From positions 1 to 47,168 of the forward strand of contig CANQUG010000024.1 of NCBI GenBank assembly GCA_947626985.1: a DNA stretch of 47,168 nt, given 5' to 3'. This DNA is from an uncultured Lachnospiraceae bacterium (GTDB lineage: Bacteria > Bacillota > Clostridia > Lachnospirales > Lachnospiraceae). Both the position numbers and the translations under genes were made by a program. The notes beneath the pieces were generated by a model. It was not told the origin of the DNA. It did no database searches and saw only the letters and a list, made by a program, of their open reading frames with translations. Of this stretch, positions 17,226-44,775 are shown piece by piece (positions within the stretch are counted from its first letter, which is position 1; every line of letters begins with the position of its first letter).

Positions 17226-18356
17226 ATGCAGTATAAGAAGGACTGGGAAGCGACCAGACAGAGATTTGAGGACTACTGGAAGGGGCAGAATACCGGAAGA
17301 CCGATTATGCGGGTAACCGGCGTGAAGCCCGGATATTATCCGTTTCAGCTGCCTCCCGGGGTAAAATCCCGGACGCTGGAAGAAAAATATACGGATCCCG
17401 AGAGTATTGTGCGCAGATATCGCTATTACTGTGAGACTCATGAATTTCTGGGAGAAAGTTTTCCGAATCTGAATGCGGATTTCGGTCCGGGATCGCTGGC
17501 CGCTTATCTGGGAAGCGAGATCCGGTGGCAGCCGAACACGGTATGGTTTGATCCCTGTGTAGACGAGTGGGAGACGTTTCCGGAACTGAAATTTGACCCG
17601 GAGAATAAGTGGTTTAAGAAGCATATCCATATCTTTGATGAGTGCAGGAAGCTGATCGGGGGAGATTTCCCCATCGCAATTCCGGATCTGATGGAAAATG
17701 TGGATGTGCTGGCTTCGCTGCGCGGGGCGATGAATCTGCTGTACGATATGCTGGATGATGAGGAAGAGGTCATAAAGAGGGTACAGCAGGTGACGGACTG
17801 CTATCAGCAGTATTATGATGCGTTTTATAAATATGCGCAGTATGAAGGCGGAAGTGCTTACACGGTGTTCCAGATTTTCGGAAGCGGAAAGACGCAGAAG
17901 CTGCAGTGTGATTTCTCGGCGCTGCTGTCGCCGGATTATTTCCGGACATTTGTGCTGGATTCGCTGAAGCAGGTTTCAGCTTCTTTGGATCATGTGCTGT
18001 ATCATCTGGATGGACCGGATGCGATCAAGCATATGGACGCACTGATGGAAGTGGACGGAATTCAGGCGCTTCAGTGGACTAGCGGGGACGCGGGGCCGGA
18101 CGGAACGCTGGAAAAGTGGGACGTGATCTATGATAAGGCGCGCGCGGCGGGCAAACAGCTCTGGGTGAAGGTTTATTCCGGAGAGTTTAAGGACTGGATC
18201 CGCAATGCGGAACGGATCGTAAAGAAATATGGCTCCAGAGGACTGTACCTGTTCTTTAACGATATGCCATTGGAGCAGGCACAGGAGCTTCTGGAGTATG
18301 CAGAGAAAAACTGGAGCGATGTAAAAGGAACGGCTGTCAGGGGAGATTCAGTTTGA
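17226..18356 (+). CDS. Uroporphyrinogen decarboxylase (UroD/MtaA)-family protein 1
   Basis: A 376-residue UroD-fold protein. It is not a heme-pathway HemE: no heme genes are near, and the HemE N-terminal signature is absent. It belongs to a clostridial subgroup found beside sugar genes. Where zinc methyltransferases (MtaA/MtbA) have His-x-Cys it has His260-Leu-Asp262 in YHLDGP, and no Cys in the later ligand region, so metal binding, if any, differs from its two paralogues at 42.6-44.8 kb. GGAGG sets the start. Its 3' end overlaps the convergent YesN-like gene by 20 bases. The substrate is unknown; methyl or carboxyl chemistry on a sugar-derived compound is conceivable. Confidence 0.75.
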   Translation: MQYKKDWEATRQRFEDYWKGQNTGRPIMRVTGVKPGYYPFQLPPGVKSRTLEEKYTDPESIVRRYRYYCETHEFLGESFPNLNADFGPGSLAAYLGSEIRWQPNTVWFDPCVDEWETFPELKFDPENKWFKKHIHIFDECRKLIGGDFPIAIPDLMENVDVLASLRGAMNLLYDMLDDEEEVIKRVQQVTDCYQQYYDAFYKYAQYEGGSAYTVFQIFGSGKTQKLQCDFSALLSPDYFRTFVLDSLKQVSASLDHVLYHLDGPDAIKHMDALMEVDGIQALQWTSGDAGPDGTLEKWDVIYDKARAAGKQLWVKVYSGEFKDWIRNAERIVKKYGSRGLYLFFNDMPLEQAQELLEYAEKNWSDVKGTAVRGDSV

Positions 18357-19854
18357 TCTCCATTCGGTAGGCATTTGGCGAAACACCGTATTTCCTGCGG
18401 AACTGGCGGTTAAAGTAGGTCTGGCTGGAAAAACCGGCCAGATCTACGATTTCCTTCAGCTTCATGTTTGTATCCTTCATCAGGGAGACTGCGTATTTTA
18501 AGCGTTCCTCATTCAGATAATCGCTGAAGTATCTGCCGGTCTGCTGGTGGAAGACCGTACCCAGGTAGGAAGGATTCAGGTTCAGCTTTGCGGCCAGTGT
18601 CTTCAGGGAGACTTCTTTATTGGAAAAGTCGTGTACGGCGGCGATGACGGTATTCACATAAGGGTAGGCGGCTGCCTGGGTCGCCTGCTTTTTTTCGCAG
18701 ATGTCAAAACATGCGCTGAGAAAACGGGTCAGATATGCGAGGAGGTCTTCCGGAGTTTTATCCGGAAGAGACGGAAGTTCGCGCAGAAATCCGATCAGCG
18801 TTTCCTCCGGACAGTTCTCCGGCGAAGCCTGGGAAATGCCCCAGCCCAGCACATGCAGAAGAAATGCGTAATGGCGGGATCCGGGAAGAGAGAAAAAGAG
18901 CCGGGAAATCTGCGCCTGGTAGGTCTCTTTGGAAATTTCCGAAAAGTCCCGTTCAATGATGCTGGAAGCGGCCATGGTCAGGTCAAGACCACAGGTGCTG
19001 ATGCCGGGAAGGGGACTGTACTGCAGGAAGAGGAATTTTGCGGCGCTGCGGTAGCTGGCGGTAACGTCTTCATAGTTTTTTGCCGTGGGGCCGATGGAAG
19101 TAAAAAAGGGAAAATCCAGTTTTCGTCTGACATTTTCCAGTCTGGAAAGCAGGAACGTTATCGAGTGTTCCCGATCTGCGCTGCTGATGATACAGACCAG
19201 AGTGGTGGGTGATTCAAAGTAAAAATGACTGATGCAGTTTCCTATCAGGAGAGACAGCAGATAGTCGAAAAGGGAGGCCATTTTTTCCTTGCCATGGTAA
19301 AAGGAAGGCGGAACAGAGAAGATCACCACCGTATAATCGTCCAGGCAGAGATTGACGCCCAGCATTTGAGCCCGGGTGAGAAATTCGTCCTCGCTGAGAG
19401 TGCCGTTCACCCAGTTTTCGATAAAATTGCTCCGGAAAGTGAGCATGGTGGAGCCGTAAGTTCCGGACAGGGTAAGCCGCTCATGAATATGCGCGGCGAT
19501 CCGGCTGATGGAATCTCTCAATTCGTCGGGATCCAGAGGCTTTAACAAATAATTTTCCGCACCGTGGCGCATGGCGGAACGAACATATTTGAAATTATCG
19601 TAGGCGGAAAGTACCAGGATGGAAGTCGGCGGACTGGCCTCCTTTACCCGGCGGATGAGTTCGATTCCGTCGATATGAGGCATGGAGATGTCCGTCACAA
19701 GAAGATCTACCGTATGGCTTTCACAGTAAGCCAAAGCCTGTACGGGATCGGTGGTGCACAGAGAGAGTTCAAAATGAAAACCGGGCCAGTCGATGGCATC
19801 CTTGATTCCTTCTACCACGAAGGATTCATCATCGACGATAACAGCTTGATACAT
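18337..19854 (-). CDS. YesN-like response regulator with AraC DNA-binding domain
   Basis: A 505-residue regulator. The receiver domain (1-120) has VDDE (7-10), phospho-acceptor Asp55 in LLVTDISMPHIDG and Lys in NYLLKPLD. A long linker follows (about 130-390), then two AraC-type helix-turn-helix units (about 405-500) with the family ending FNRQFRRKYGVSPNAYR. I chose the ATG at 19854 (GGAAAGGA upstream). The likely partner kinase is the YesM-like protein at 38879-40699. It probably controls the hydrolase and importer operons around it. It is divergent from the GH2 gene with a 100-bp shared regulatory region. Confidence 0.9.
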   Translation of the reverse strand: MYQAVIVDDESFVVEGIKDAIDWPGFHFELSLCTTDPVQALAYCESHTVDLLVTDISMPHIDGIELIRRVKEASPPTSILVLSAYDNFKYVRSAMRHGAENYLLKPLDPDELRDSISRIAAHIHERLTLSGTYGSTMLTFRSNFIENWVNGTLSEDEFLTRAQMLGVNLCLDDYTVVIFSVPPSFYHGKEKMASLFDYLLSLLIGNCISHFYFESPTTLVCIISSADREHSITFLLSRLENVRRKLDFPFFTSIGPTAKNYEDVTASYRSAAKFLFLQYSPLPGISTCGLDLTMAASSIIERDFSEISKETYQAQISRLFFSLPGSRHYAFLLHVLGWGISQASPENCPEETLIGFLRELPSLPDKTPEDLLAYLTRFLSACFDICEKKQATQAAAYPYVNTVIAAVHDFSNKEVSLKTLAAKLNLNPSYLGTVFHQQTGRYFSDYLNEERLKYAVSLMKDTNMKLKEIVDLAGFSSQTYFNRQFRRKYGVSPNAYRMEIKLNLP

Positions 19855-19911
19855 AGGAATAGAATCCTTTCCATAAGTAAAATGACGCAATTACTTTTGC
19901 CGCTTTTTCAT

Positions 19912-19940
19912 AGTATAACACAGGTCGAAAAGATTGCAAA
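19912..19940 (-). promoter_or_regulatory. Possible promoter of the YesN-like gene, in the divergent region
   Basis: On the minus strand TTTGCA (19935-19940) and TATACT (19912-19917) are 17 bp apart. On the plus strand the same spot gives TATAAC (19914-19919) with no good -35, suggesting the GH2 operon needs an activator. Both -10 elements overlap. Confidence 0.4.
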
Positions 19941-19954
19941 GGAGATGACAGAGG

Positions 19955-22900
19955 ATGAACGGCAAAGATTTTTTTCAGGAGATCGCAATGACAAAGCACC
20001 CGGCGGCGTACAGGGACGAAGAGGTCGAACCCAGGGAAGCCTGCCGGACATTTTTGAAAGAAACGGATACATTTCCGGAGGGAATCAATTTTTCTCAGGA
20101 TGTTTCCTTTGAGGAGAAGCGGAAAATGTTTGCGGAACAGCTGGAGCGTATGCGGGCAAAATACCGCCCGTTTATGGAAAACTATCTGCCGGAGATGGAC
20201 CCCTTACATGGCTGTCTGGAACTCCGGCAGTTTGAATTCCGCTATCTGAAAAAGCATGAGATATTCTCAGACCGCTGTGATGAAGAGGAAGAATGGGAAA
20301 AAACGGTGATCCCGGATTATCGCGGCCCGGCGGAAGAAAAGGGGCGATGGCGGGGATATTACCGGACCTGGTTTGACGGGATGGTCCATGAGAAGAATGA
20401 GCGGGTGATTCTGCGGTTCCAGTGTGTGGATTATATTGCGAAGGTTTATCTGAACGGGAATTTTGTGGGAAGTCATGAGGGATTTTTTGCTCCTTTTGAG
20501 TTCGATATTACGGATTTTCTCAGGCAGCGCAATGAACTGTATGTAGAATGCGTTAATGATCTGCCAATGCTTGGAATCGGGCCGGTTCTGGACGGAGACA
20601 AACTTTACGGAGCGACCGGGCCGGGATGGGACGATCCGCAGACGGGGTGGCACCATTGTCCGGCAGGAGCCGGCATTTTTGGAAAAGTGACTGTGGAATG
20701 CAGGCCGGAGATCTTTGTGACGGATATTTTCCTTCGTCCGGATATCGACGGAGAGTATTCGGAGATCCGCATCGGAGTGCAGAATTATACGGAGGAGGTC
20801 AAAGAAGGCTGTATGCTGGAGGTTCATGCGCTGCCGCGGAATTACCGGGGGGAAGAAATCGGAAGCCTGAAGGAGAAAGCGGATTACATCGGTGTGGGAA
20901 AGAACGAATACCGCTGGAAGATCCGGCTGACAGGATACCGTCTGTGGGAGCCGGACACACCCTGGCTTTACGGGGCGGCAGTGAAGCTTACCTGCGGAGA
21001 TGCTGTGATTTCCCGGCGTGTAACGACCTTTGGCATGAAAAAATTTGTCAGCGACGAGAGCGCTTCCCCGAAAGGGAGGTTTTATCTGAACAATAAACCG
21101 TATATTCTGCGGGGCGCCAATGAAATGGGTCATCTGCAGCAATGTGTGATGAAAGGCTGTATGGATCAGCTTGCGGATGATATTCTCATTGCAAAAATGT
21201 GCCATATGAATTATTATCGGATGACTCAGCGGCCGGTTCAGGAGGAAATTTATGAGTATTTCGATATGCTTGGCATGTTCCATCAGTGCGATCTTCCGCT
21301 GTTCGGTTTTCTGCGGCGGAATCAGTTTGCGGAAGCGGTCCGCCAGGCCGTGGAGATGGAGCATCTGATCCGCAGCCATGTATCTTCAGTGATGGTGACG
21401 CTGATCAATGAGCCCATGAGCATTCGGAAAACAAATGATTCCAACGACAAATATTCGAAGCGTTACAGGATCAAGGGTCATCGGGATCTGATGCGGGATG
21501 AACTGGAAGCTTTTTTTGCGGCGGCCAGAAATGCGATATATACGGAAAATCCGGATCGGGTGATAAAAAATGCGGAAGGAGATTACGACGCGCCCACGAA
21601 GGAGGGGATGCCGGACTTCCATATATATACCATGTGGTATACGAATCATGGCGAACCTGTCGGAAAGCTGCTGAAGGGCTATCTGCCGCCGATCAAAAGC
21701 GGGTGGATGGCGGGATGCGGCGAATACGGCGCAGAAGGACTGGACAATCTTCCGGTGATGGAGAAGTATTATCCGGAGGAATGGATGGAGAAGAGGGAAG
21801 ATGGAAGCTGGTTTCCGGACAGGATCGTACGCGCGCAGACGTATTCGCTGCAGGGAGACTGGTATCAGGAACAGGAGACGGTACAGGACTGGATAAGGGA
21901 GAGTCAGATCCATCAGGCGTATGCCGTGAGGCTGATGACGGATGCGTTTCGGCGGAGAGCGGATGTGATCAATCATACGGCTGTCCATTTGCTGATCGAC
22001 GCATGGCCGGCCGGATGGATGAAGGCACTGGTGGACTGCGACCGGGAGCCTAAACGGGCATATTTTGCCTGCCGGGACTGCCTGGTTCCTCTGCGGGTGC
22101 ATCTGTGGTGCAGCCGGAATTATGCGTATGCCGGGGAACAGATCCATGCGGAGGTCTGGCTTCTGAATGATACATGTGCGGACAGGGAGGTTCAGGTACG
22201 CGCGGCGGTGCGGGCCGGCGGAAAGCTTCTGTCGTGCTGGGAGGAAGAAGCGCGGGTTGAAGGGGCTTACTCAAAGTGTATTGGAATGATCCCGGTGACA
22301 GTTCCGCAGGTGAACGCGGAGACTCCGGTGCAGGTGGAAGCCTGCATTCTTGGGTTGGACGGGGAATGTCTGAATGCGGAGAAATGGGAGTTTCTGGCAT
22401 ATCCCAGACTCTGCCGGCAAAAATCAGCAGCGGTGATCGGGCAGACTGCGGCAGTCTGCGCCCGGGCAGCAGGATTGAGAATTGCCCGGGAGCCGGATGC
22501 GGAGGAATGCGATGGGGTGCTTGTGAGCGATTATTCGCCGGAAGGTTTGGAGATGGCCCGAAGATATCATGAATGCGGGAAGAAGCTGGTGCTGCTGCTG
22601 CCGGATGAGCCGGGATTTGAGACCAGCGTCTGCGGGCTGAAGATCAGCCTGAAGAAGTGCCAGGATGTTTTTTTTGCCGCAGCGGAAGAAGAGTACCGGA
22701 AGTATCATTTGAGCATGTTGTACAACCGGGACGCTGATTATATCGATTTTGTGGGAAGGAACAGTATTGTGTGTCCGAAGGAGGGCCGGGATGCCGTTTA
22801 TTCCTACGCCGGGAACGGATCTGAGGGAAGCGGGGGAAGGAAAACCAGGCTTCCGTTTGTGAAGATTTTTGAGAAAGAGAGGATTGCGGCGGTGAGTCTG

Positions 22901-22972
22901 CTGCTGACGGGACGTGTCGGGGTGAATCCGAATCTGGACGCGCTGCTTGCGGATCTGGTGAGCTGGCCGTGA
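19955..22972 (+). CDS. Glycoside hydrolase family 2-like protein
   Basis: A 1005-residue GH2-type enzyme without a signal peptide, so cytoplasmic. The layout is an N-terminal jelly-roll sugar-binding domain (about 85-250, with VYLNGNFVGSHEG typical of the fold), an Ig-like domain (250-365), a TIM barrel (about 375-680) and C-terminal beta and flavodoxin-like parts. The likely acid/base is Glu486 in LINEP; a nucleophile candidate is Glu590 in CGEYGAEG. GH2 covers beta-galactosidase, glucuronidase and mannosidase activities; sequence alone does not decide. The start is uncertain: the ATG at 19988 has a better-placed AGGAG than the one chosen here. It opens the operon with the CE15-like and GH95 genes. 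Confidence 0.85.
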   Translation: MNGKDFFQEIAMTKHPAAYRDEEVEPREACRTFLKETDTFPEGINFSQDVSFEEKRKMFAEQLERMRAKYRPFMENYLPEMDPLHGCLELRQFEFRYLKKHEIFSDRCDEEEEWEKTVIPDYRGPAEEKGRWRGYYRTWFDGMVHEKNERVILRFQCVDYIAKVYLNGNFVGSHEGFFAPFEFDITDFLRQRNELYVECVNDLPMLGIGPVLDGDKLYGATGPGWDDPQTGWHHCPAGAGIFGKVTVECRPEIFVTDIFLRPDIDGEYSEIRIGVQNYTEEVKEGCMLEVHALPRNYRGEEIGSLKEKADYIGVGKNEYRWKIRLTGYRLWEPDTPWLYGAAVKLTCGDAVISRRVTTFGMKKFVSDESASPKGRFYLNNKPYILRGANEMGHLQQCVMKGCMDQLADDILIAKMCHMNYYRMTQRPVQEEIYEYFDMLGMFHQCDLPLFGFLRRNQFAEAVRQAVEMEHLIRSHVSSVMVTLINEPMSIRKTNDSNDKYSKRYRIKGHRDLMRDELEAFFAAARNAIYTENPDRVIKNAEGDYDAPTKEGMPDFHIYTMWYTNHGEPVGKLLKGYLPPIKSGWMAGCGEYGAEGLDNLPVMEKYYPEEWMEKREDGSWFPDRIVRAQTYSLQGDWYQEQETVQDWIRESQIHQAYAVRLMTDAFRRRADVINHTAVHLLIDAWPAGWMKALVDCDREPKRAYFACRDCLVPLRVHLWCSRNYAYAGEQIHAEVWLLNDTCADREVQVRAAVRAGGKLLSCWEEEARVEGAYSKCIGMIPVTVPQVNAETPVQVEACILGLDGECLNAEKWEFLAYPRLCRQKSAAVIGQTAAVCARAAGLRIAREPDAEECDGVLVSDYSPEGLEMARRYHECGKKLVLLLPDEPGFETSVCGLKISLKKCQDVFFAAAEEEYRKYHLSMLYNRDADYIDFVGRNSIVCPKEGRDAVYSYAGNGSEGSGGRKTRLPFVKIFEKERIAAVSLLLTGRVGVNPNLDALLADLVSWP

Positions 22973-23084: not shown

Positions 23085-24143
23085 ATGTTACAGGAAGAAT
23101 TGGAGAAACGGGGGATACCGAAAATCGGTCTCCCTTCGGAGGAACCCCGGAGAGAAAAACGCAGAGAGGAGATCAGACAGATTCTTTGCAGAGAATTTTA
23201 TGGATTTGCACCGGAATTTCCGCTGACGGATGAGTCGGAGATTCTGCGGACGGAGAAAAACAGTTTCGGCGGGAAGGGAACTACCTTTGAGATTGAAATA
23301 AGGGTACGTTCGCCTTTCGGGTATACCTCCTTTCCGGCGACTCTCACGGTACCGGCAGGAGTGGAGAAGCCGCCGCTTTTTCTGTGTTATACCTTTACGC
23401 CGGCGATTGCGGATGGACTCGGCGAAGAGATTCTGGACAACGGGTTCGCTGCTGCAAGCCTGTATTACGAAAGCGTTGCGCCGGATAAAGACGATCAGTT
23501 CGCAAACGGGGCAGGAGGATTCTGCCGGCGGAATCCCTATGATTCCTGGGGAAAGATTGCAATCTGGGCCTGGGCGGGCTCCCGCCTGCTGGATTTCGTG
23601 CTGAAGACCGGCCTGTGCGATGAAACCCGTGCTGCAGTCGTGGGCCATTCAAGACTTGGGAAGACCGCGCTGTTTGCCGGGGCTATGGACGAGCGCTTTT
23701 CCCTGGTGATCAGTAATGATTCCGGGGCGGGCGGAGCGGCGCTCCTCCGCGGAAAAACCGGAGAGAAGATTGAGAATCTTGCAATGCAGGGATCCTGTTT
23801 CTGGTTCTGCGGAAATATGAGGAAATATGTAAAAAAAGAAGATGAACTTCCGTTTGACGCGCATTTTCTGGCAGGACTGACGGCGCCGAGGCACTTATAT
23901 ATATCCAGTGCGTCCGAGGATGCCTGGGCGGATCCTGTGTCGGAGTTTTTGTGCTGCGCGGCGGCGGGCGAGGCTTATGAGAGCTATGGTGTGACCGGTC
24001 TGGCGGCGCCGGACCGGTATCCCCTGCCCGGGGAAGCGTTTCACGACGGGAGGATCGGGTATCATCTGCGAAAGGGGACGCATTATATGGGACGGGAGGA
24101 CTGGAATCAGTTCTTTGCGTACCGGAGGAAGCATAAGATATGA
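23085..24143 (+). CDS. CE15-like (glucuronoyl-esterase-type) alpha/beta-hydrolase
   Basis: A 352-residue esterase resembling bacterial CE15 proteins. Landmarks are the nucleophile motif GHSRLGKTALFAGAMDERF with Ser189 (CE15 usually GCSRxGK), NDSGAGGAAL after it, FDAHFLAGLTAPR, SEDAWADP with acid candidates Asp279/Asp283, and His333 in GTHYMG. CE15 enzymes split ester bonds of (4-O-methyl)glucuronic acid in plant cell wall material. The Cys-to-His change beside Ser189 and the lack of a signal peptide make an acetyl- or other sugar-ester activity equally possible. The start follows AAAGGAG. It is 112 bases after the GH2 gene and 53 before GH95. Confidence 0.75.
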   Translation: MLQEELEKRGIPKIGLPSEEPRREKRREEIRQILCREFYGFAPEFPLTDESEILRTEKNSFGGKGTTFEIEIRVRSPFGYTSFPATLTVPAGVEKPPLFLCYTFTPAIADGLGEEILDNGFAAASLYYESVAPDKDDQFANGAGGFCRRNPYDSWGKIAIWAWAGSRLLDFVLKTGLCDETRAAVVGHSRLGKTALFAGAMDERFSLVISNDSGAGGAALLRGKTGEKIENLAMQGSCFWFCGNMRKYVKKEDELPFDAHFLAGLTAPRHLYISSASEDAWADPVSEFLCCAAAGEAYESYGVTGLAAPDRYPLPGEAFHDGRIGYHLRKGTHYMGREDWNQFFAYRRKHKI

Positions 24144-26699: not shown

Positions 26700-27629
26700 A
26701 TGAAAGGAAAGAAAGAAACCGGAAAAACCCTTCGCAGACAGATCTGGGAATACCGATGGATTTACCTGCTGGGAATCCCGGGCCTGGTCGTCATGTTTCT
26801 GATGTATTACATGCCGCTTCGGGGAATCCTGATGGCGTTTCAGGATTATAATCCTCATCTGGGCATTCTGGGAAGCCCGTGGACGGGTCTGAAACATTTT
26901 CGGACACTGTTCTCAGACCCCAAGTTTTACAACATGCTGAAGAATACGCTGGTCATCAGCGGACTGAATCTGCTGACGTTTCCCGTGCCGATCTTCCTGG
27001 CTATGCTTTTAAACGAGGTTCGTAATCTCAAATTCAAGAAATTTATCCAGACGTCTATCTATCTGCCTCATTTCATGTCCTGGGCGATTGTAGTCAGCCT
27101 GACTTTTTTCCTGCTTTCCACCGAACAGGGCGTTGTCAACAAGCTTATCGTCATGGCTGGGGGCGAGCCTTTCGCTTTTTTGTTCAGTACGAAATGGATT
27201 TATCTGATTCTGGTGGTGCAGTCCCTATGGAAAAGTGTGGGCTGGAACTCCATCGTATATCTGGCGGCGATCTCCGGCATCGACCAGAGCCTTTACGAAG
27301 CGGCGAAAATGGACGGCGCCAACCGCTTTCAGTGTATGATGAAGATCACGCTGCCCAGCATTATGCCTACCGTGATCGTGATGCTGATCCTGAGAATGGG
27401 AAGCATCATTTCCGTGGATTTTGAACAGACATTCCTGATGAACAACCCGCTGGTAAAATCCAAACTGGAAGTTTTTGAAATTTTTATCTACAACAACAGC
27501 ATTGCAACGGGAAGCACCCAGTATTCCTATACGACGGCTGTCGGTCTGTTTAAGTCCGTTGTCAACACCGCGCTGGTGTGCCTGACGAACTGGATCACCA
27601 GCCGCAGGGGCTACGAAGGTGTTATGTAG
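26700..27629 (+). CDS. LplB-type sugar ABC transporter permease
   Basis: A 309-residue CUT1 permease with about six membrane helices. The family start (WIYLLGIPGLVVMFLMYYMPL) and the ATPase-contact EAA motif (EAAKMDGANRFQCMMKITLP) are clear. It pairs with the next permease and the binding protein for uptake of complex or plant/host oligosaccharides. No ATPase gene is present in the operon, as is usual for CUT1 systems that share an MsmX-type ATPase encoded elsewhere. The start is preceded by a weak AAAAGGGTG site. Confidence 0.93.
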   Translation: MKGKKETGKTLRRQIWEYRWIYLLGIPGLVVMFLMYYMPLRGILMAFQDYNPHLGILGSPWTGLKHFRTLFSDPKFYNMLKNTLVISGLNLLTFPVPIFLAMLLNEVRNLKFKKFIQTSIYLPHFMSWAIVVSLTFFLLSTEQGVVNKLIVMAGGEPFAFLFSTKWIYLILVVQSLWKSVGWNSIVYLAAISGIDQSLYEAAKMDGANRFQCMMKITLPSIMPTVIVMLILRMGSIISVDFEQTFLMNNPLVKSKLEVFEIFIYNNSIATGSTQYSYTTAVGLFKSVVNTALVCLTNWITSRRGYEGVM

Positions 27630-30253: not shown

Positions 30254-30283
30254 TTGGAAAAATCACGGGTACCGGAGGAAATT

Positions 30284-33001: not shown

Positions 33002-33020
33002 CCGACGGGGAGGGACGAAC

Positions 33021-34367: not shown

Positions 34368-34470
34368 CCGGCGGTATGCCGGCCTGGAAATTTAAGGATA
34401 AATATGCCGAATATTGTCAGAACTGCCGTTTCCGGCAGGAGTTTATATACAGGAAGAAGGAGAGGGCGAT

Positions 34471-36489: not shown

Positions 36490-38786
36490 GAAGAGAAGCA
36501 GAGTTTATAACACGTGTGGTCTGCACGCCGGACGGAAAAAAAAGGGAACCCGGCATGTGTATCGTGAACAGAGAGACCTGTCCGGAGGTACTTTTCCTGC
36601 CAGGGCAGGAGGCGGAGCGGCTGACATTCGAAAAGGACGGTAAAGAGCTGCTGACCCAGACCGGCTATGAGTTTGAACCCAGAGGGATTTTTAAATATGA
36701 GACAGAAGGGGGAACGGCGAAGATTGTCACCCGGAAAACTATCGATGGGGAACGCTCCTTTCTGGAAGATTCGGCTGCCGTCAAAATCGGGGACACATTT
36801 TCCGGAAGAATCACCTTTGAAATTACCGGAGGAGAGGCCATTTATGGTCTTGGACAGCAGGAAAGAGGAATTTACAATTATCGGAACGTAAGAGAATACC
36901 TGTATCAGAACAACATGAAAATTCCCATGCCGGTGCTGCTGTCTTCGAAGGGGTACGCCATTCTGTTCGACGCAGGGTGCCTGATGATCTATGAGGAAAA
37001 AAACAACAGGATAACGGTGACCCTTGACGCGGCTGATCAGATCGCATATTATCTGATCACGGGTTCAGATTTTGATGAACTGATTCATGGAATTCGCACG
37101 CTGACCGGAAAAGCCGTGATGCTTCCCAGATGGGCTTTCGGCTATGTGCAGTCGAAAGAGCGCTATGTGTCCCAGGAGGATATCCTGCAGACGGCCGGGG
37201 AGTTTAAGAAACGGGGAATACCGGTTTCCTGTCTGGTTCTTGACTGGCAGTCCTGGGAGCCCGGCAGATGGGGAAACAAGATCGTGGATAAAGAACGATT
37301 TCCGGATCTGAAGGGAATGACGGATGCCCTTCATGATGCCGGGATTGCTTTCATGATTTCAATCTGGCCCAATATGAACAAAGGGTGCCAGGATTATCAG
37401 GAGATGCTGGAAGCAGGTGCGCTTCTGGCCAACCTTTCTACCTATGACGCCTTTAATAAAAAGGGACGCGATCTGTACTGGAAGCAGTGTGAAAGAGAAT
37501 TGGCGGCAGGGGGCTGCGATGGCTGGTGGTGCGATTCTACGGAACCCTTTACGCCGGACTGGAAAGGGACTGAAAAACCTTCTGAAGAAGAGCGGTACGA
37601 GCTGGCGAAGGGGGAACTGACCCGATATTTTGACGCGCGGGAGGCGAATCACTATGCGCTGGTTCACGCGAAGGGAATTTATGAGAACCAGACTGCGGCG
37701 GGCATTCACAAGCGCGTGCTGAACCTTACCCGGTCGGGTTCCATTTCCATTCAGCAATACGGAGCGGTTCTTTGGTCGGGTGATATTATGGCCACCTGGG
37801 AGGTTTTCCGGCGGCAGGTAGCGGAAGGACTGAGCATAAGCATGTCGGGAATTCCCTACTGGACGCTGGATATTGGCGCTTTTTTCACGGGATATCTGAA
37901 CGGATACAGAAAAATGAGCGGAAATCCCGACGCTGTATCTCCCTGGTTCTGGAGCGGACTGTTTGAGCGGGGTGTCGGGGATAAAGGATACAGAGAACTG
38001 TATACCCGGTGGCTTCAGTTCGGAACCTATCTGCCCGTGATGCGCTCGCATGGCACAGACACGCCCAGAGAACCCTGGAACTTCGGTGAGAAGGGTACGA
38101 TCTACTATGATACGATTACGGCCTATATATGGAAACGCTTTCAAATGCTTCCGTACACCTATTCCCTTGCGTATAAAGTGGAGACGGAGGATTATACGAT
38201 TCTTCGAAGCCTGATGTTCGACTTTGCGGCGGACGCAAATGTCAGAGAGATGTCAGGAGAATTTCTGTATGGTCCGTTTTATCTGGTTCGTCCGGTGACG
38301 GAACCCATGGAGTACGGCCCCGAGGATACTTATCTGGGGAAACCGCAGATCTGTACGGTTTATCTTCCTGAAGGCGCAGACTGGTATCAGGAGAATACAA
38401 AGACGTATTTTCACGGAGGACAGAATGTGACGGTAGATGCGCCGATATCCTGGCAGCCGGTGTTTGTGCGGGCGGGGGCGATTCTGCCTGTTTCCACGAC
38501 CGGTGAAAAGAGCGGGACAGCAGATACGCTGGAGATCTATGAGGGAGCCGACGGAACGTTCGTGTGCTATTTTGATAACGGGAAAGATTATGCTTACAGA
38601 AATGGGGAGTATGCGGCGGTGCCGATGCGGTACAGTGATGAGAAAAAGGAACTGGTGATCGGGGATATGCAAGGAAGATATTCCTGCCCCGGGCATTATC
38701 AGGTGAAATTTTTCCGAAGGGATGGAAGCGTGAAGATCACCGGGGCAGATTATGAAGGAAGAGAAACTGTGATTCTTTTGAACTGA
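36486..38786 (+). CDS. GH31 family alpha-xylosidase/alpha-glucosidase
   Basis: A 766-residue GH31 protein. An N-terminal beta-sandwich (1-210) precedes the barrel. DWQSWEPGRWG (253-263) is a substrate-site loop, the nucleophile is Asp350 in WWCDSTEP, and the acid/base is Asp433 in LWSGDI; the retaining mechanism is that of the family. The overall pattern fits alpha-xylosidases somewhat better than alpha-glucosidases, but sequence alone does not settle it. No signal peptide. The ATG lies in the ATGA overlap with GH42, with CGGAGA upstream. If an alpha-xylosidase, it would release xylose from xyloglucan-type oligosaccharides. Confidence 0.88.
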   Translation: MRREAEFITRVVCTPDGKKREPGMCIVNRETCPEVLFLPGQEAERLTFEKDGKELLTQTGYEFEPRGIFKYETEGGTAKIVTRKTIDGERSFLEDSAAVKIGDTFSGRITFEITGGEAIYGLGQQERGIYNYRNVREYLYQNNMKIPMPVLLSSKGYAILFDAGCLMIYEEKNNRITVTLDAADQIAYYLITGSDFDELIHGIRTLTGKAVMLPRWAFGYVQSKERYVSQEDILQTAGEFKKRGIPVSCLVLDWQSWEPGRWGNKIVDKERFPDLKGMTDALHDAGIAFMISIWPNMNKGCQDYQEMLEAGALLANLSTYDAFNKKGRDLYWKQCERELAAGGCDGWWCDSTEPFTPDWKGTEKPSEEERYELAKGELTRYFDAREANHYALVHAKGIYENQTAAGIHKRVLNLTRSGSISIQQYGAVLWSGDIMATWEVFRRQVAEGLSISMSGIPYWTLDIGAFFTGYLNGYRKMSGNPDAVSPWFWSGLFERGVGDKGYRELYTRWLQFGTYLPVMRSHGTDTPREPWNFGEKGTIYYDTITAYIWKRFQMLPYTYSLAYKVETEDYTILRSLMFDFAADANVREMSGEFLYGPFYLVRPVTEPMEYGPEDTYLGKPQICTVYLPEGADWYQENTKTYFHGGQNVTVDAPISWQPVFVRAGAILPVSTTGEKSGTADTLEIYEGADGTFVCYFDNGKDYAYRNGEYAAVPMRYSDEKKELVIGDMQGRYSCPGHYQVKFFRRDGSVKITGADYEGRETVILLN

Positions 38787-38877: not shown

Positions 38878-38878
38878 A

Positions 38879-40699
38879 TCAGGGCGGCCCGGGCCGCCCT
38901 TGCTGCAGATTTTCCGGCAGAACCGGCGGAATCCGGAACTTCACCCGGAACCCGCAGCCGTCTGCTCCGCCGGACAGATAAAGCCTGGACGATTCTCCAA
39001 ACACCAGTTTCAGCCGGGTGTTTACATTGGAAAGGGCAAATCCGCTGTCTTCGCGCTGCTCCAGCACAGGCCGGGCCAGTTTTTCTTCCAGGGAGGCCAG
39101 AGCTTCTTCAGAGATGGGAGCGCCGTTGTTTTCTATGGAAAATTCCAGCTGCTTCCGGCCGTCTTCCCGGATAAGACGGACAGACACAGTCAGAAGATTA
39201 TCGTTGCGTTCCGGTACAAGTCCGTGGGTAAAATAATTTTCGATCAGAGGATGCAGGGTATTTTTCGGAATCCCGTAAATTCTGGCTGCATTGTCGATAA
39301 AGAATTCATACTCAAAGTTTCCGAAGCGGTACATATACAGATTAATCAGGTTTTCGCAGAGATTCAGCTCTTCCGTGATGGTAACGTACAGATTCCTTCG
39401 GGTCTGGTTCCGGTACATTCTGGAAAGCAGAAGAATCATCTGAGAGGCGTCCGCACAGCGGCCCTGAGTGATCTGAACGCGGATCTGCTCCAGGGTATTG
39501 TAGAGAAAATGAGGATTTATGCTGGCCTGCATGGCATAAAGTTCCTGCTTTTTCCGGGTGATTTCGGAGAGGTACGCTCTTTCTACATTCTGCTGGAGCT
39601 CATCGCACATGCGGTTAAAACTCAGAATGATCTGCGTGAATTCGTCATTGTTCTTCGGAACGGGAAGACGGTAATCCAGCTTATTCTGACCGATCCGTCC
39701 CATACCTGTCTGGATCGCTTTGATCTTCCGGTCGGAGCGCCGCAGCGTTACCGCATAAAGCAGAACAGAGGTGAAACAGATCAGAGAGGCCAGAGCCGTC
39801 AGGATAAAACGGGGAGAACTCCTGGCGATTCTGGACGCGGGAATCCGGCAGAGGGTCAGATAATCATATTCGTCCACATTCCAGACGGAGGTGTAAAAGT
39901 AATCGGTTCCGTCGGACTTCAGATTTCCGGAGGCGGGAAACTCATCCGGAAAATTCCGGAGGCCCCCGTCTGCCGGGGCCTGATAATTTCCGTCTGAAGA
40001 ATACAGGATATTCTGATTACGGTCAATGATCAGAAAGAGAGCGCCCTCATCCAGGTGAGTGGAAGTAATGGAATCGGAAAATTCGGAAGTCGTATAAAGC
40101 AGAATTAACTGGCCCAGAGGGAGCACCGACGTTCCCCGATAGTCGAAAAGGGTGCTGCACAGCCCGTAAACGTGGTCGGAAGGCTTTTCGTATTCAGGGC
40201 TGAGAGATTCCAGCTGCGTGTCCGAAAGCACCTGGAGCCGGTAGGGAGTAAAGGTAACTCCGGCGGTGAGGGTCAGGGGAATGGAGGCCAGCGTGTCGTA
40301 GACCGGGCTGTACTGGAAAAGCCGCCCGTTCCCGGTCCGCAGCAGAATACCGCGGCAGTGAGAATCATACTGGCAGATTTCCCGCATCATCTGAATGATG
40401 GAATAGCTGACCGAGGATACGGACAGGTTTCGCTCCCTGTAGAGACGGCTGAGGGTCTGGTAGCGGGAAGTGCTGGAAAATACAGGGGTCAGAGCGCTGG
40501 TCAGATTGGCTTCCTTGGAAGACAGGATCGAAGAGAGAGCATTTAATTCGATGTCGTAATTCTTGAGGTATTCGGCGCGCTGGCGCTGTTCGATCAGGCT
40601 GCCGCAGAAGATGAACAGGGTGATGGTCGCCGTGCACACGATCGCGATGCAGAACAGAAGCATCCGGGAATAATAACCGGAAATTATTTTTTTTATCAT
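38879..40699 (-). CDS. YesM-like sensor histidine kinase
   Basis: A 606-residue kinase. Membrane helices at about 12-33 and 297-318 enclose an extracellular sensor domain of about 260 residues. A HAMP-like linker follows (320-372), then the His_kinase domain with His397 in SINPHFLYNTLEQ and HPLIEN in the ATPase part. The final glycine box is degenerate (SGFALSNVNTRL). It most likely phosphorylates the YesN-like regulator encoded at 18337-19854, as YesM/YesN pairs do. It is divergent from the binding lipoprotein gene. The C-terminal codons run through a 20-bp palindrome. Confidence 0.9.
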   Translation of the reverse strand: MIKKIISGYYSRMLLFCIAIVCTATITLFIFCGSLIEQRQRAEYLKNYDIELNALSSILSSKEANLTSALTPVFSSTSRYQTLSRLYRERNLSVSSVSYSIIQMMREICQYDSHCRGILLRTGNGRLFQYSPVYDTLASIPLTLTAGVTFTPYRLQVLSDTQLESLSPEYEKPSDHVYGLCSTLFDYRGTSVLPLGQLILLYTTSEFSDSITSTHLDEGALFLIIDRNQNILYSSDGNYQAPADGGLRNFPDEFPASGNLKSDGTDYFYTSVWNVDEYDYLTLCRIPASRIARSSPRFILTALASLICFTSVLLYAVTLRRSDRKIKAIQTGMGRIGQNKLDYRLPVPKNNDEFTQIILSFNRMCDELQQNVERAYLSEITRKKQELYAMQASINPHFLYNTLEQIRVQITQGRCADASQMILLLSRMYRNQTRRNLYVTITEELNLCENLINLYMYRFGNFEYEFFIDNAARIYGIPKNTLHPLIENYFTHGLVPERNDNLLTVSVRLIREDGRKQLEFSIENNGAPISEEALASLEEKLARPVLEQREDSGFALSNVNTRLKLVFGESSRLYLSGGADGCGFRVKFRIPPVLPENLQQGRPGPP

Positions 40700-40776: not shown

Positions 40777-40789
40777 GGAGGATGAGCTA

Positions 40790-42508
40790 TTGAACAGCAG
40801 CAGGAAAAAAACGTCTGCGGTGCTGCTCTGCCTTTCCGCTTTTCTGATTGCCGGCTGCAGCGGAACCGCTTCGCCTGGAGTTGAGACCAGAGATGACGAG
40901 GCTGTGATCCGGGCATACATCCAGCAGGCCGTTACCACGGAATCGGGAATCTGGGAGGGCTGGGCGGCGCAGAAGCTCTATGAGGATACCGGGATACGGG
41001 TAGATTTTCAGCCCACTGGGTCGGAGGTGGAACAGAAGCTGAAGCAGTACATTGCAGCGGGAACTCTGCCGGATATTTTAGGATTCCGGAATCTGGAACA
41101 GGCGCAGATGGCCATGGATGCCGGGCTTTTGCTGCCGCTGAGCGATTATCAGGAGTTACTGCCGTCCGTTTTTGAGACGGAAGTATACAAAAAAGCTGTT
41201 TCCTATACAAGAGAGCAGGCCAGTGGAGGGAGAGGGCACCTGTTTATTGTGCCGGTTTCGATCGGGCCGGCTTCCTATAATTCCTATAACTGGCTGCCGA
41301 TGCTGCAGTGGGATGCTTACAGGAAGGCGGGTTTTCCACGGATCACCACTCTGGAGGATTATCTGGACGCGGCGGAACAGATGACAAAGGTAAAGCCTTT
41401 TACAGAAAACGGAGAAAAAGTATATGGATTTTCATTGTTTTCCGACTGGGATAAATATTCCGCGATGGAAATCGCCACCTTGTCCTTTTTTTATGGAATC
41501 GATACAGAGTATGTGTCTCCGCTGATGGAAACGGACGTAATCACTTTGAACATGCGGTCCATACTGGAAGACGACAGTTTTTACCGGAGAGCACTTCATT
41601 TTTATTTCGAAGCGAACCAGAGGGGGCTTCTGGATCCGGATTCGCGGACGCAGACCTACAGCAATCTGGAAAAAAAGTACAGCGAAGGCCGCATCCTGTT
41701 TTCCTGTTTTTCATGGCTGACCGGAACATACAACGACGTCATCTCCGGTCATGTGAATAATGCCGAAGCGCCGGATGGTTTTGCCTGCGTTCCGGCAGAT
41801 GATATGAAAATCTATGAAGCGCCGGATCAGACAATCGGAAGAAACTGGTATCTGGCCGTCTGCAGCAATACAAAATATCCGGAAAAAGCCTGTGAATTTC
41901 TGAACTGGCTTTACGACCCGGAGGTGGAAGCTTATTTATATAACGGCCCGGAGGGAATTACCTGGGAATATGATGAGAATGGGGAACCCTGCGTGACGGA
42001 AGAAGGCTGGAATATCATAAACAACAAATACGAAGATCTGATGCCGGAAGAGGCAGGAGGCGGATGTTTTCAGGATTCTGTTGATTTTCTGAATTCTCTT
42101 GGACTGCAGGCATCCACAGTTATGGATAACGGCTATACCATCTGCTATCGTTACTGGCCGTCCACCCGGGAAAGAAGCGTCACGCTGCTGCAGCGGGAGG
42201 TGAACGAAATGCTGGGAGCGGATACGATCGCGGAATATCTCAGCCGGAATGATATGATTGCGAAATCCACGATGGCGGTCAATATGATGCCGGTGGTTTC
42301 CGATGAACGGAAGATTAAAGCCGAAGCCATTGGCGAGATCGTGCGGGAGATCTCCTGGAGAATGGTTTATGCAGAAGACGAAGAGGAATTTGATTCCCTG
42401 TGGAAAAGTATGCAGGCGCAGGCGGAGGAGCTTGGCATAGAGCAGGTGGAAACGTTCTACCAGAACGCCTGGAAGAAGGCGCTCCGGTTTGTGTCGGCTT
42501 ATGAATAA
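40790..42508 (+). CDS. Sugar-binding lipoprotein (extracellular solute-binding family)
   Basis: A 572-residue lipoprotein. The signal peptide ends in a lipobox (LIAGC, Cys at about residue 23), so it is membrane-anchored. The mature part resembles LplA/YtcQ-type binding proteins (DILGFRNLEQAQMAMDAGLLLPL, later FLNWLYDPEVEAYLYNGPEG). It has no permease of its own nearby; it may serve the importer at 26700-28549 or sense ligand for the YesM-like kinase. The start is TTG at 40790 with AGGAGG eight bases upstream; the nearer ATG at 40782 runs into a stop after three codons. Two UroD-family genes follow on the same strand. Confidence 0.9.
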   Translation: MNSSRKKTSAVLLCLSAFLIAGCSGTASPGVETRDDEAVIRAYIQQAVTTESGIWEGWAAQKLYEDTGIRVDFQPTGSEVEQKLKQYIAAGTLPDILGFRNLEQAQMAMDAGLLLPLSDYQELLPSVFETEVYKKAVSYTREQASGGRGHLFIVPVSIGPASYNSYNWLPMLQWDAYRKAGFPRITTLEDYLDAAEQMTKVKPFTENGEKVYGFSLFSDWDKYSAMEIATLSFFYGIDTEYVSPLMETDVITLNMRSILEDDSFYRRALHFYFEANQRGLLDPDSRTQTYSNLEKKYSEGRILFSCFSWLTGTYNDVISGHVNNAEAPDGFACVPADDMKIYEAPDQTIGRNWYLAVCSNTKYPEKACEFLNWLYDPEVEAYLYNGPEGITWEYDENGEPCVTEEGWNIINNKYEDLMPEEAGGGCFQDSVDFLNSLGLQASTVMDNGYTICYRYWPSTRERSVTLLQREVNEMLGADTIAEYLSRNDMIAKSTMAVNMMPVVSDERKIKAEAIGEIVREISWRMVYAEDEEEFDSLWKSMQAQAEELGIEQVETFYQNAWKKALRFVSAYE

Positions 42509-42596
42509 ATCCGGAAGAGAAGGACAGGCATAAATATATGCGGGATCTGCTTCCGGGATTCTGGAAAAACAGGAAGAAAAAAGGTGAAGCGAAAAA

Positions 42597-43742
42597 ATGA
42601 GACAGGCGGAGTTTGATACGTCTCTGAGAGATTCTCAGGGAACGGAGGTTGTTCCCGTAAAAGCAGAAGATTTTGATCTGGATGCTTATGCGGAGTATGA
42701 AGAAAGTCTTCTTGAAAAGAATAAAAGGTTTGCGGAGGCGGAACAGGGACTTCTGGTATACCGCAGAGTGCGAGCCAATGGAGTTTTTTTTGACAGGTGC
42801 AGGGATTACAGGGAATCTCTGGAGCTGCAGCTGGGAGCGCTTAAGGCGGGCATGTCTTACAGAATGGATATTCCTAATTTCCTGGAACCGTGGTACGGGA
42901 TCGGTTATATTGCGTCCTGCTTCGGCAGCGGCTACCAGTGGCTTCCCGGGCAGGCTCCTGCTGTACTGCCGCGTTTTTCCAGCGTCAGAGAGCTTTTGAA
43001 TTCTGATTTTATTCCCATTGCCCGGTCGCCGGAAGGAAAGCGCCATCTGGAAATGATTGAGTATTTTATGGACAGGACGAAAGGAAAAGTTCCGGTGTCT
43101 TTCAGTGATGTGCAGTCTCCTTTGAATATGCTTACCTATCTCCTTCCCGTGACGAATCTGTTTCTGGAAATTTATGATGATCCGGCGGGGGTGAAAAAGG
43201 CGGCGAAGCTGTGTGCGGATCTGCTGAAAGACTTTCTTATGGAGCAGAAAAAGCTGATCGGCAATGCGCTGGCATATCCGGGGCATGGATTTGCCAGCAG
43301 CCGGGCGTTTTCCGGACTGGGTCTTAGCAATGATACTTCCATTATGCTTCAGGAAGAAGACTACACGGATATTTTTAAGGAACGGGATGAGGAGCTTGGA
43401 GATGCTTTCGGCGGAATCGCCTATCATTCCTGCGGGGTGTGGGAGAAAAAAATTGAAATGGTGAAAAGCTACCGGAATATTTTTATGGCGGACGGCGCGT
43501 TTACCATTGAGACGGATCCCGCGCCCAATCGGCCGGAGATTTTTGCCGGGGGATTCCAGGGCACCGGAATTATCTTAAATGCCAGAGCAGTAGGAAATGC
43601 GGAAAACAGCTTTACAGCTTTGAAACAGCTGTGGAGGCCAAAACAGAAGCTCATTGCCGTGACCTACTGCAAAACGCCTCAGGAGCAGGAAATACTGTAT
43701 GAACGGCTCCATGAAATGGAGGGGAAAACGTATGAATTATGA
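42597..43742 (+). CDS. UroD/MtaA-family protein 2, zinc methyltransferase-like
   Basis: A 381-residue UroD-fold protein. It keeps the ligands expected for MtaA/MtbA-type zinc methyltransferases: His277-x-Cys279 in YHSCG and a distal Cys358 in VTYCKTP. Such enzymes move methyl groups between a corrinoid protein and a thiol. No corrinoid protein gene is in the window. It follows the lipoprotein gene by 88 bases and overlaps the next UroD gene by 11 bases. The role in sugar metabolism is inferred only from position. Confidence 0.78.
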   Translation: MRQAEFDTSLRDSQGTEVVPVKAEDFDLDAYAEYEESLLEKNKRFAEAEQGLLVYRRVRANGVFFDRCRDYRESLELQLGALKAGMSYRMDIPNFLEPWYGIGYIASCFGSGYQWLPGQAPAVLPRFSSVRELLNSDFIPIARSPEGKRHLEMIEYFMDRTKGKVPVSFSDVQSPLNMLTYLLPVTNLFLEIYDDPAGVKKAAKLCADLLKDFLMEQKKLIGNALAYPGHGFASSRAFSGLGLSNDTSIMLQEEDYTDIFKERDEELGDAFGGIAYHSCGVWEKKIEMVKSYRNIFMADGAFTIETDPAPNRPEIFAGGFQGTGIILNARAVGNAENSFTALKQLWRPKQKLIAVTYCKTPQEQEILYERLHEMEGKTYEL

Positions 43743-44775
43743 TATAACCTTTCACCCTGGCTGGTGGCATGAAAATGCCGGCGTTGATTTTACCCGGGAA
43801 TTTTTCGATGATCCGGAATACCGGATGGAATGCGATATCCGAATGAGGAGAATTTTATACGATCGTTTCGGGGAATATGGCCTGGGAGAAAAAAGACCGG
43901 AAAAAAGGCCGCTGCTGGGGACCGACCTGCTGGCGGCGGGATACCTGCTGTCGGAGCTCATGGGGTGCCGGATTCTTTATGAACAGGATAATTCCCCTCA
44001 GGTGATCTGTATGAATCTGGATGAGGATTCCATTGATGAAATCAAAGCTCCGGATCTGGACGCCAGCGGGGTGTGGGCCAGGACTCAGAAACAGATCGAT
44101 TATCTGAAGGAGCATTACGGGCATGTGGAAACTTTTGTGAATCTTATGGGAATCCAGAATATTGCTTTGGATCTGATGGGACAGGACCTGATGGTTTCTT
44201 ATTACACTGCGCCGGAAAAAGTGGACAGACTGCTGGGAGAAATTACAAAGCTTTCTATTGATGTGGGAAAACGTTTTAAGGAGTTATCTGATGATATTTC
44301 CGGTGGGGTGACGGCGATCGTGCGCCGGACGAAGCCGGAAGTGTATCTGACTTCCAATTGTTCTGTGGAGATGATTTCGAATGATCTTTACGAAAAGTTT
44401 CTTTTAAAATACGACCAGAAACTGGCCGATGCATTTGGCCCCTTCGGCGTGCATCACTGCGGCAGAAGCATGGAGCATGTGACGGAGGGCTACAGTAAGA
44501 TCAGAGGACTGGTTTTCGCGGAGGTTGGGGCGTTTTCGGATTTGCGGGCAGTCCGGGCAAAACTGCCGGGCGTATTTTTAAATGCGCGATACAGTCCGGT
44601 GAGACTGATGAATGCTTCAGATTCGGAGATCCATGAGGAAGTGGAGGCCCTTGTAAAAAACGGTCAGGAAAATGAAAAGAATTTTTCCGTTTCCTGCGTG
44701 GGAATCGACAAATACGTACCGGATAAGCAGATTCTCAGCTTTCTAGACGCCTGCCGGTCCGGAGGTCTTTCATAA
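43732..44775 (+). CDS. UroD/MtaA-family protein 3, zinc methyltransferase-like
   Basis: A 347-residue UroD-fold protein, divergent from the previous one. It has His241-x-Cys243 in HHCGRSMEH and Cys322 in SVSCVGIDKY, which match a zinc-binding site of the MtaA kind. The ATG at 43732 is chosen because GGAGGGG lies seven bases upstream; it overlaps gene 2. The two are presumably made together and may form a pair with separate methyl-donor and acceptor roles. This is a hypothesis. Confidence 0.78.
   Translation: MNYDITFHPGWWHENAGVDFTREFFDDPEYRMECDIRMRRILYDRFGEYGLGEKRPEKRPLLGTDLLAAGYLLSELMGCRILYEQDNSPQVICMNLDEDSIDEIKAPDLDASGVWARTQKQIDYLKEHYGHVETFVNLMGIQNIALDLMGQDLMVSYYTAPEKVDRLLGEITKLSIDVGKRFKELSDDISGGVTAIVRRTKPEVYLTSNCSVEMISNDLYEKFLLKYDQKLADAFGPFGVHHCGRSMEHVTEGYSKIRGLVFAEVGAFSDLRAVRAKLPGVFLNARYSPVRLMNASDSEIHEEVEALVKNGQENEKNFSVSCVGIDKYVPDKQILSFLDACRSGGLS

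Follow-up and report, generated by a model that had tools for sequence, protein, structure and literature searches.

A candidate corrinoid-dependent route for methyl-sugar demethylation in a putative rhamnogalacturonan II locus of a Lachnospiraceae bacterium

Introduction

What are three genes of the uroporphyrinogen decarboxylase (UroD) superfamily doing among the glycosidase genes of an uncultured Lachnospiraceae bacterium? The locus lies on a stretch of 47,168 nucleotides, called the window here, which is the entire contig C24 of a 4.08-Mb draft genome (G000). A sequence-only reading of this DNA had placed UroD-family genes at 17226, 42597 and 43732, flanking a set of hydrolase genes, and had suggested that they serve a corrinoid route of sugar demethylation. 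We call the products U1, U2 and U3. All three genes were found as described, by their open frames, by Pfam (U2 and U3) and by a fold model (U1). On balance, and with modest confidence, we favour the view that the window is a locus for the use of rhamnogalacturonan II (RG-II) side chains with a built-in corrinoid demethylation of methyl sugars.

RG-II occurs in all land plants (PMC12168206, in excerpt). Its methyl-etherified sugars are methyl-fucose (MeFuc), methyl-xylose (MeXyl) and methyl-galacturonate (MeGalA) (PMC8218411, in excerpt). 2-O-MeXyl is located on side chain A (PMC12168206, in excerpt), and of the two galacturonates attached to the rhamnose that adjoins the side chain A apiose, one can be methyl-etherified (PMC10952590, in excerpt). 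Chemically, the methyl-etherified sugars stand in the way of complete use of the glycan, and the bacterial demethylation of a sugar ether that we found in print is oxygen-dependent (PMC10033563, in excerpt). If the proposal is true, an oxygen-free corrinoid route would explain the fate of methyl sugars in anaerobes, link the one-carbon metabolism of Blautia-type bacteria with pectin degradation, and establish a class of B12 enzymes that act on sugars.

Results

U1 has a predicted UroD fold and a His-x-Asp site

U1 (376 residues from 17226) had no match in Pfam or NCBIfam. Its AlphaFold2 model was built on an alignment of 58 of the 81 family members and had a mean predicted local distance difference test (pLDDT) score of 94.4 and a predicted template modelling (pTM) score of 0.91. 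A Foldseek search of PDB with the model ranked a Methanosarcina mazei methyltransferase first (4ay8/4ay7, E = 7.8e-11, TM-score 0.60-0.68), which we take to be MtaA, and uroporphyrinogen decarboxylases after it. Of the 14 matches at E <= 0.001, 13 were UroD-superfamily proteins and one was a cobalamin-independent methionine synthase. Searches of PDB with two U1-family profiles did not find UroD: profile A1 matched two unrelated chains, and profile A4 had zero matches. The single U1 sequence matched one UroD chain at E = 0.033. The fold assignment therefore rests on the structure model, and by this modelled fold U1 belongs to the UroD superfamily.

We observed that His260, Asp262 and His269 were invariant in all 58 aligned members. 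The His260-x-Asp262 site is present as the sequence-only reading had it; its statement that U1 has no Cys was mistaken, as five are present (69, 111, 140, 192 and 228), all outside the His-x-Asp motif. By a site rule given in the excerpted text of PMC10418091, a carboxylate replacing one or both Cys marks O-methyl substrates and His-Cys-Cys marks S-methyl substrates. Through Asp262, U1 falls on the O-methyl side of this rule (PMC10418091, in excerpt), and metal binding is predicted. Profile comparison related U1 moderately to U2 (probability 71%; His-x-Asp-Gly aligned to His-x-Cys-Gly) and weakly to U3 (35%). A wider U1-like family (L039, L082-L084 and L095; 24-28% identity in the alignment) also keeps His-x-Asp-Gly...His-x-Asp, with several paralogues in genomes G179 and G214.

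U1 relatives are fused to corrinoid and pterin-binding domains

We analysed the best 80 of 281 relatives as U1-family loci, to which all counts out of 80 refer. In 22 of these, the U1 homologue, with 56-62% identity to window U1, formed the C-terminal part of a longer open frame (~925-1029 residues). All 3 fusions scanned carried Pterin_bind, B12-binding_2 and B12-binding by Pfam, and pterin-binding and corrinoid-binding parts were seen by BLAST in the remaining ones. The domain order is methyltransferase II (MT-II), corrinoid domain, methyltransferase I (MT-I). A D-x-H-x-x-G stretch in the corrinoid domain, presumably the corrinoid motif, was invariant in the 21 fusions (of 22) that were aligned. 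Carriers include Blautia schinkii, Blautia caecimuris and Robinsoniella peoriensis, and the fusion state required 3 changes on the U1 tree.

In a Propionibacteriaceae metagenome-assembled genome (MAG; locus L245), genes for a glycoside hydrolase of family 31 (GH31), U1, a corrinoid protein and a RACo-like activase are consecutive on one strand. The corrinoid protein was MtgC-like (215 bits, cut-off 370), and the RACo-like protein scored 262 bits with the AcsV model (cut-off 800). A RACo-like gene also lies in the flank of a fusion accompanied by GH31 in L192, L195 and L221. Examined U1 flanks held a RACo-like gene in 4/80 loci and an MtrH-like gene in 3/80.

The genome search for corrinoid-protein, MtrH-like and activase genes that the sequence-only reading had recommended was positive. 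The sole PF02607 protein of the window genome is encoded on another contig, C50, and shares 70% identity with the corrinoid domain of the Robinsoniella fusion. Its MtrH-like (MtrH/AcsE-like) neighbour shares 62% identity with that fusion's domain and passes NF005719 (340.5 bits, cut-off 259). RACo genes are on C50 and C102, and an acetyl-CoA synthase (ACS) gene is on C102. A UroD protein encoded on C50, the contig of the corrinoid genes, also has His-x-Asp. In a survey of 250 genomes of the family, each with a different genus code (one per genus), PF02607 frames occurred in 229 genera, many of them ~800 residues long and MetH-like, and the presence of PF02607 alone is therefore uninformative. 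Frames of stand-alone length occurred in at least 50 of the 250 genera (hand count) and in all 16 genera chosen for U1/U2.

Together, the fusion, the L245 gene row and the C50 domain identities make it very likely, at the level of sequence comparison, that U1 is a corrinoid-dependent methyltransferase (MT-I). Genetic linkage of the MT-I to a corrinoid protein, an MT-II and an activase is found at the level of the U1 family, and the window itself is unlinked.

U1 genes recur beside one GH31 subfamily

GH31 was found within 7 kb of U1 in 30/80 loci and within 500 bp in 17. The number expected within 7 kb was ~1.3 (given 82 GH31 matches over 16 genomes, ~57.5 Mb together), which is a rough yardstick, as the loci are interrelated and glycan genes cluster. 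Neither this expectation nor the hypergeometric figures below take account of shared descent. The GH31s near U1 had 41-61% identity to the window GH31. Other GH31s sampled from such genomes comprised seven at 22-31%, five in RG-II-type gene blocks at 53-55%, two without U1 in the examined stretch at 46%, and one in two pieces at 42%. These identities therefore indicate that the U1 neighbours derive from one subfamily, which includes the window GH31 and also occurs without an adjoining U1. Both halves of the U1 tree show the association, as do Treponema and Spirochaetaceae MAGs.

Judging from these neighbours, the substrate of U1 is probably a methylated sugar. Because an alpha-xylosidase-type GH31 adjoins an O-type methyltransferase of a family that marks RG-II, 2-O-methyl-xylose is indicated, and 2-O-methyl-D-xylose is our best guess from gene context.

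The glycan locus resembles an RG-II side-chain locus

By its predicted gene content (Table 1), the window looks like an RG-II side-chain locus. A GH138 alpha-galacturonidase, which we take as a sign of RG-II breakdown, is present by its match to BPa0997 (617 bits); with the NCBI equivalog model NF049878 the same protein scored 936.7 bits, under the cut-off of 1300. GH140 apiosidase and GH106, which we also take to be RG-II utilisation functions, were absent among the window proteins scanned, and the rest of G000 was not searched for either. A GH140-type apiosidase is present in the related loci L111 and L183, and a GH106-type cluster adjoins U1 in 9/80 loci. We found the GH95-GH29-GH42-GH31 set again in G220, G158 and G181, and GH29 with GH31 in G157 and G098. 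Robinsoniella (G179) keeps the window gene set with almost unchanged gene order, apart from a relocated permease block. RG-II is the best-supported glycan because of GH138, the alpha-xylosidase-type GH31, GH140/GH106 in related loci and the recurring gene sets; xyloglucan may be an alternative.

Bacteroides RG-II loci share GH138, GH95 and GH2 with the window, and GH140 and GH106 with its relatives. Unlike those loci, the window has an ATP-binding cassette (ABC) importer and a two-component system, and we know of no UroD genes in Bacteroides RG-II loci. The sequence-only reading had named 4-O-methyl-glucuronate among possible substrates; the RG-II methyl sugars MeXyl, MeFuc and MeGalA fit the locus better. 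Gene context suggests that a sugar may be the substrate of the demethylation route it proposed.

UroD genes co-occur with GH138 across the family

Strong orthologues in the 250-genome survey numbered 15 for U1, 9 for U2, 8 for U3 and 8 for GH138. The retained orthologues had at least 54% identity; matches at <=50% identity (U1), at <=43% identity (U2/U3) and with E >1e-4 (GH138, 3 genera) were left out. U1 was present in all 8 GH138 genera. U3 and GH138 shared 7 genera (hypergeometric 6e-12, or 1.6e-10 excluding the window's own genome, uncorrected for shared descent). U2, U3 and GH138 occurred together in 7/250 genomes, which bears out, again uncorrected for shared descent, the association of UroD genes with a glycan gene anticipated by the sequence-only reading. 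Exceptions were G181 (GH138 and U1, without U2/U3), G013 (U2-U3 without GH138, with a best U1 match of 30% identity) and G158 (U2 and U1, without U3 and GH138), and seven further U1 genera lacked GH138. This survey and the 80-locus set are not independent and share several contigs (L180 and L215 belong to G179, and L199 to G093).

U2 and U3 form a conserved pair with His-Cys-Cys sites

U2 has 381 residues from 42597. U3 has 347 residues numbered from 43732; the frame is open from 43699 onwards, with a GGAGG-like ribosome site ahead of 43732. Both exceeded the Pfam URO-D cut-off of 23.9 bits (U2 29.3, U3 41.7), and profile comparison related them to each other (93%). UroD was not matched in PDB by U2 alone, U3 alone or the U3 profile. 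The nearest NCBIfam models to U3 were MtbA/MtaA (best 38.8 vs 244 bits). The MtaA, MtbA and CmuA cut-offs were not reached (U3 24.9-38.8 vs 235-600 bits; U1 and U2 unmatched), and no HemE model was among the NCBIfam matches of U1-U3 at E<=0.01. The predicted metal-site residues are H277/C279/C358 in U2 and H241/C243/C322 in U3, as had been read from the sequence. His-Cys-Cys was kept in 13/13 U3 orthologues; in U2, the His and first Cys were kept in 12/12 and the third residue, Cys358, in 11/12 (Val in G161).

U2 and U3 are adjacent in nine genomes (G000, G013, G098, G161, G179, G220, G547, G567 and G449), 11 kb apart in G093 and on separate contigs in G157. In G013 the pair stands with a tagaturonate reductase (626 bits, cut-off 359), a tripartite ATP-independent periplasmic (TRAP) transporter and a galactarate-dehydratase-like gene (below cut-off), with glucuronate isomerase nearby. 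In G449, which belongs to another family, the pair is accompanied by TRAP transporters, by genes resembling UxaC, UxaB and UxaA, and by one more UroD protein. The pair lies downstream of a sugar-type ABC importer in G547 and G567, which have this additional UroD gene in the flank as well. The hexuronate and TRAP neighbours and the sugar-type importer therefore suggest a methylated uronate for U2-U3, an assignment to which we give about one chance in three.

All 9 U2 genera of the survey have a corrinoid frame of stand-alone length elsewhere in the genome. In Robinsoniella, genes for two additional corrinoid proteins, an MtrH-like protein and one more UroD protein (L158:4340-11287; G179:C17, ~89-96 kb) lie ~19-25 kb downstream of the U2-U3 pair. 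A fourth UroD type, with His-x-Cys, occurs near U2-U3 in three genomes (L286:1118-2260, L284:257-1396 and L285:8743-9882); the one scanned was MtaA/CmuA-like (82 bits vs cut-off 235).

In G158, U2 shares one frame with an RNase-T-type exonuclease (L127:1498-3594). We rejected this fusion as a clue to function, as G098 and G220 have an exonuclease of the same type only as the upstream neighbour of U2. An order-level search found U3 in 5/392 genomes, the window's own counted. U3 (43732-44772) was unmatched in 6/6 other species of the window's genus searched, and therefore looks accessory in the genus.

Discussion

Our proposal runs as follows. Imported oligosaccharides would be cut by GH95, GH29, GH2, GH138 and the alpha-xylosidase-type GH31. 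U1, acting as MT-I, would bind the ether oxygen of an O-methyl sugar at its His/carboxylate site, which may hold a metal. Its substrate would be 2-O-methyl-D-xylose, freed by GH31 or still bound. In the direction of transfer that we propose, a Co(I)-corrinoid protein may then receive the methyl group from U1. The partners encoded on C50, namely the corrinoid protein, the MtrH/AcsE-like methyl-tetrahydrofolate methyltransferase and the reductive activase RACo, may act in trans, and the methyl group would pass to tetrahydrofolate and into the Wood-Ljungdahl pathway of the window genome. The conserved U2-U3 pair would demethylate a second RG-II methyl ether, perhaps a methyl-etherified galacturonate. 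A wider version, possible but somewhat doubtful in our view, is a dedicated anaerobic corrinoid pathway for plant methyl-ether sugars that is divided among U1, U2 and U3 by substrate and condensed in Blautia. U1 may then serve 2-O-methyl-xylose, and U2/U3 methyl-galacturonate or 2-O-methyl-fucose; in Blautia and relatives the pathway may form one self-contained chain, in several loci close to a GH31 of alpha-xylosidase type and to a sugar importer.

Several observations weigh against corrinoid methyl-sugar demethylation in an RG-II locus. Corrinoid, pterin-binding and RACo genes were absent among the window proteins scanned, and a stand-alone corrinoid gene adjoins U1 in only 1/80 loci (L245). 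Modelling of the whole fusion gave a poor result (pLDDT 69, pTM 0.50) that is uninformative on docking. GH138 was in the examined flank of 3/80 loci, compared with 31/80 for GH31, and an RG-II substrate is therefore unsupported for most of the U1 family. Zinc, named for the UroD-fold enzymes in the sequence-only reading, is not universal, and some UroD-type demethylases work without it (PMC13222342, in excerpt). We found no assay of any member. Full-length ACS was present in only 7/15 U1 genera and 4/9 U2 genera, counting matches below 1e-50. We rejected the idea that all carriers are acetogens, as ACS was missing in 8/15 and 5/9, respectively; acetogenesis is therefore not a general sink, and the methyl group must have other fates too. 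For U2/U3, BLAST did not find a corrinoid gene beside them in stretches from 12 genomes (some of a few kb), and their His-Cys-Cys site is of the S-methyltransferase type by the rule of PMC10418091 (in excerpt). The suggestion of corrinoid methyl transfer holds strongly for U1, through the fusion and the L245 row, and with less certainty for U2/U3.

The U2/U3 sites raise the alternative that these two proteins are S-methyltransferases, moving methyl groups from a corrinoid to a thiol or from a methylthio compound, with U1 alone demethylating a sugar. The S-type residues (13/13 U3, 11/12 U2; PMC10418091, in excerpt) argue for it, as do the nearest NCBIfam models of U3, MtbA/MtaA, far under cut-off though they are. 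However, U2-U3 stand beside hexuronate genes in G013, which has no close U1, and in G449, and beside a sugar-type ABC importer in G547/G567; none of the identified neighbours is a sulfur gene, part of the neighbours being annotated. We consider this alternative unlikely. That U1 is instead an O-demethylase of the MtvB/OdmB/VdmB kind, acting through a corrinoid on aromatic methyl ethers such as lignin or flavonoid methoxyls and placed with glycosidases through shared plant-derived induction, seems to us quite unlikely. The known UroD-superfamily O-demethylases use methoxylated aromatics (PMC13222342, in excerpt), a corrinoid O-demethylase from Blautia with aryl ethers as substrates is published (PMC9602652, in excerpt), and His-x-Asp also occurs in the UroD protein of C50, the contig where the corrinoid genes lie. 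The recurrent U1 partners, however, are one GH31 subfamily and sugar ABC transporters, sugar-type partners extend to Treponema, Spirochaetaceae and Propionibacteriaceae MAGs, and the C50 protein is a separate candidate for aromatics in the window genome.

Very unlikely, in our judgement, is a locus in which GH31, GH95 and GH42 serve xyloglucan and the UroD proteins carry out decarboxylation, isomerisation or other chemistry without methyl transfer. In PDB the GH31 is closest to alpha-xylosidases, which presumably act on xyloglucan, U2-U3 stand beside uronate genes in two genomes, and no activity is known. GH138, together with GH140/GH106 in related loci, nevertheless fits RG-II by the roles that we assume for these families, and fusion to corrinoid and pterin-binding domains would be senseless for a decarboxylase.

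Among known systems, UroD-superfamily corrinoid demethylases act on O-, S- and halogen-bound methyl groups (PMC10418091 and PMC13222342, in excerpt). MtvB, OdmB and VdmB of acetogens likewise combine a UroD-superfamily MT-I with a corrinoid protein, an MT-II and an activating enzyme (PMC13222342, in excerpt), and share with U1 a carboxylate replacing Cys (rule of PMC10418091, in excerpt). By their descriptions they are set apart from U1 in using methoxylated aromatics; unlike them, U1 sits with glycosidases and has relatives that join MT-II, corrinoid domain and MT-I in one chain. The chloromethane methyltransferase CmuA also holds an MT-I and a corrinoid protein in one polypeptide (PMC13222342, in excerpt), whereas the U1 fusion is ordered MT-II, corrinoid, MT-I, includes a pterin-binding domain and has other neighbours. 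The methylcobamide:coenzyme M methyltransferases MtaA/MtbA share the fold with U1 (4ay7/4ay8) and His-Cys-Cys with U2/U3, but none of their NCBIfam models reaches its cut-off with U1-U3. P450 demethylation of 6-O-methyl-D-galactose from porphyran also removes a methyl ether from a polysaccharide sugar, by a monooxygenase yielding formaldehyde as opposed to the proposed oxygen-free corrinoid route (PMC10033563, in excerpt). In the openly licensed literature, outside which most subscription journals lie, none of the titles listed concerned corrinoid sugar demethylation or UroD genes beside glycosidases. Fold and chemistry are thus known, and the substrate class, the setting and the domain fusion are apparently new. 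The fusion protein allows direct testing with one recombinant enzyme plus activase.

Other features of the window

The features of the locus are listed in Table 1. The protein at 28583..30169 had no match in Pfam or NCBIfam.

Table 1. Genes of the glycan locus and the evidence for their assignment
Feature	Position	Strand	Evidence
U1, UroD-fold, His-x-Asp site, predicted MT-I	17226..18356	+	AlphaFold2 and Foldseek; identity to fusion C-terminal domain 56-62%; conservation
AraC-type response regulator (two-component system)	18337..19890	-	Pfam
GH2-family glycosidase	19955..22972	+	Pfam; NCBIfam glycosidase models all under cut-off
CE15-like glucuronoyl esterase	23085..24143	+	Pfam PF22244
GH95 glycosidase (alpha-L-fucosidase family)	24197..26461	+	Pfam, PDB matches
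Sugar ABC transporter permease 1	26700..27629	+	Pfam
Sugar ABC transporter permease 2	27650..28549	+	Pfam
Probable solute-binding protein	28583..30169	+	Position beside permeases; 72% homologue in same place in G179
GH138-type alpha-galacturonidase	30254..33001	+	BPa0997 (PDB 6hzf), 617 bits
GH29 alpha-L-fucosidase family	32946..34367	+	Pfam
GH42 beta-galactosidase family	34414..36489	+	Pfam
GH31, alpha-xylosidase type	36423..38786	+	Pfam; nearest PDB entries are alpha-xylosidases
Sensor histidine kinase	38879..40699	-	Pfam
ABC transporter solute-binding protein	40790..42508	+	Pfam SBP_bac_1
U2, UroD-superfamily, His-Cys-Cys site, first of U2-U3 pair	42597..43742	+	Pfam URO-D, orthologue alignments
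U3, UroD-superfamily, His-Cys-Cys site, start overlaps U2 end	43732..44775	+	Pfam URO-D, orthologue alignments

L165 (G093:C24) encodes a corrinoid protein and a RACo-like protein ~7-9 kb from close homologues (74-79%) of the window's two sugar permeases. Near the start of the window, 184-3461 encodes a VanG-type D-Ala-D-Ser ligase and, after it, a serine racemase of VanT type that carries an acyltransferase domain. The ligase scored 554 bits (cut-off 495), and the racemase scored 545 bits (cut-off 460 for the VanT-G catalytic part).

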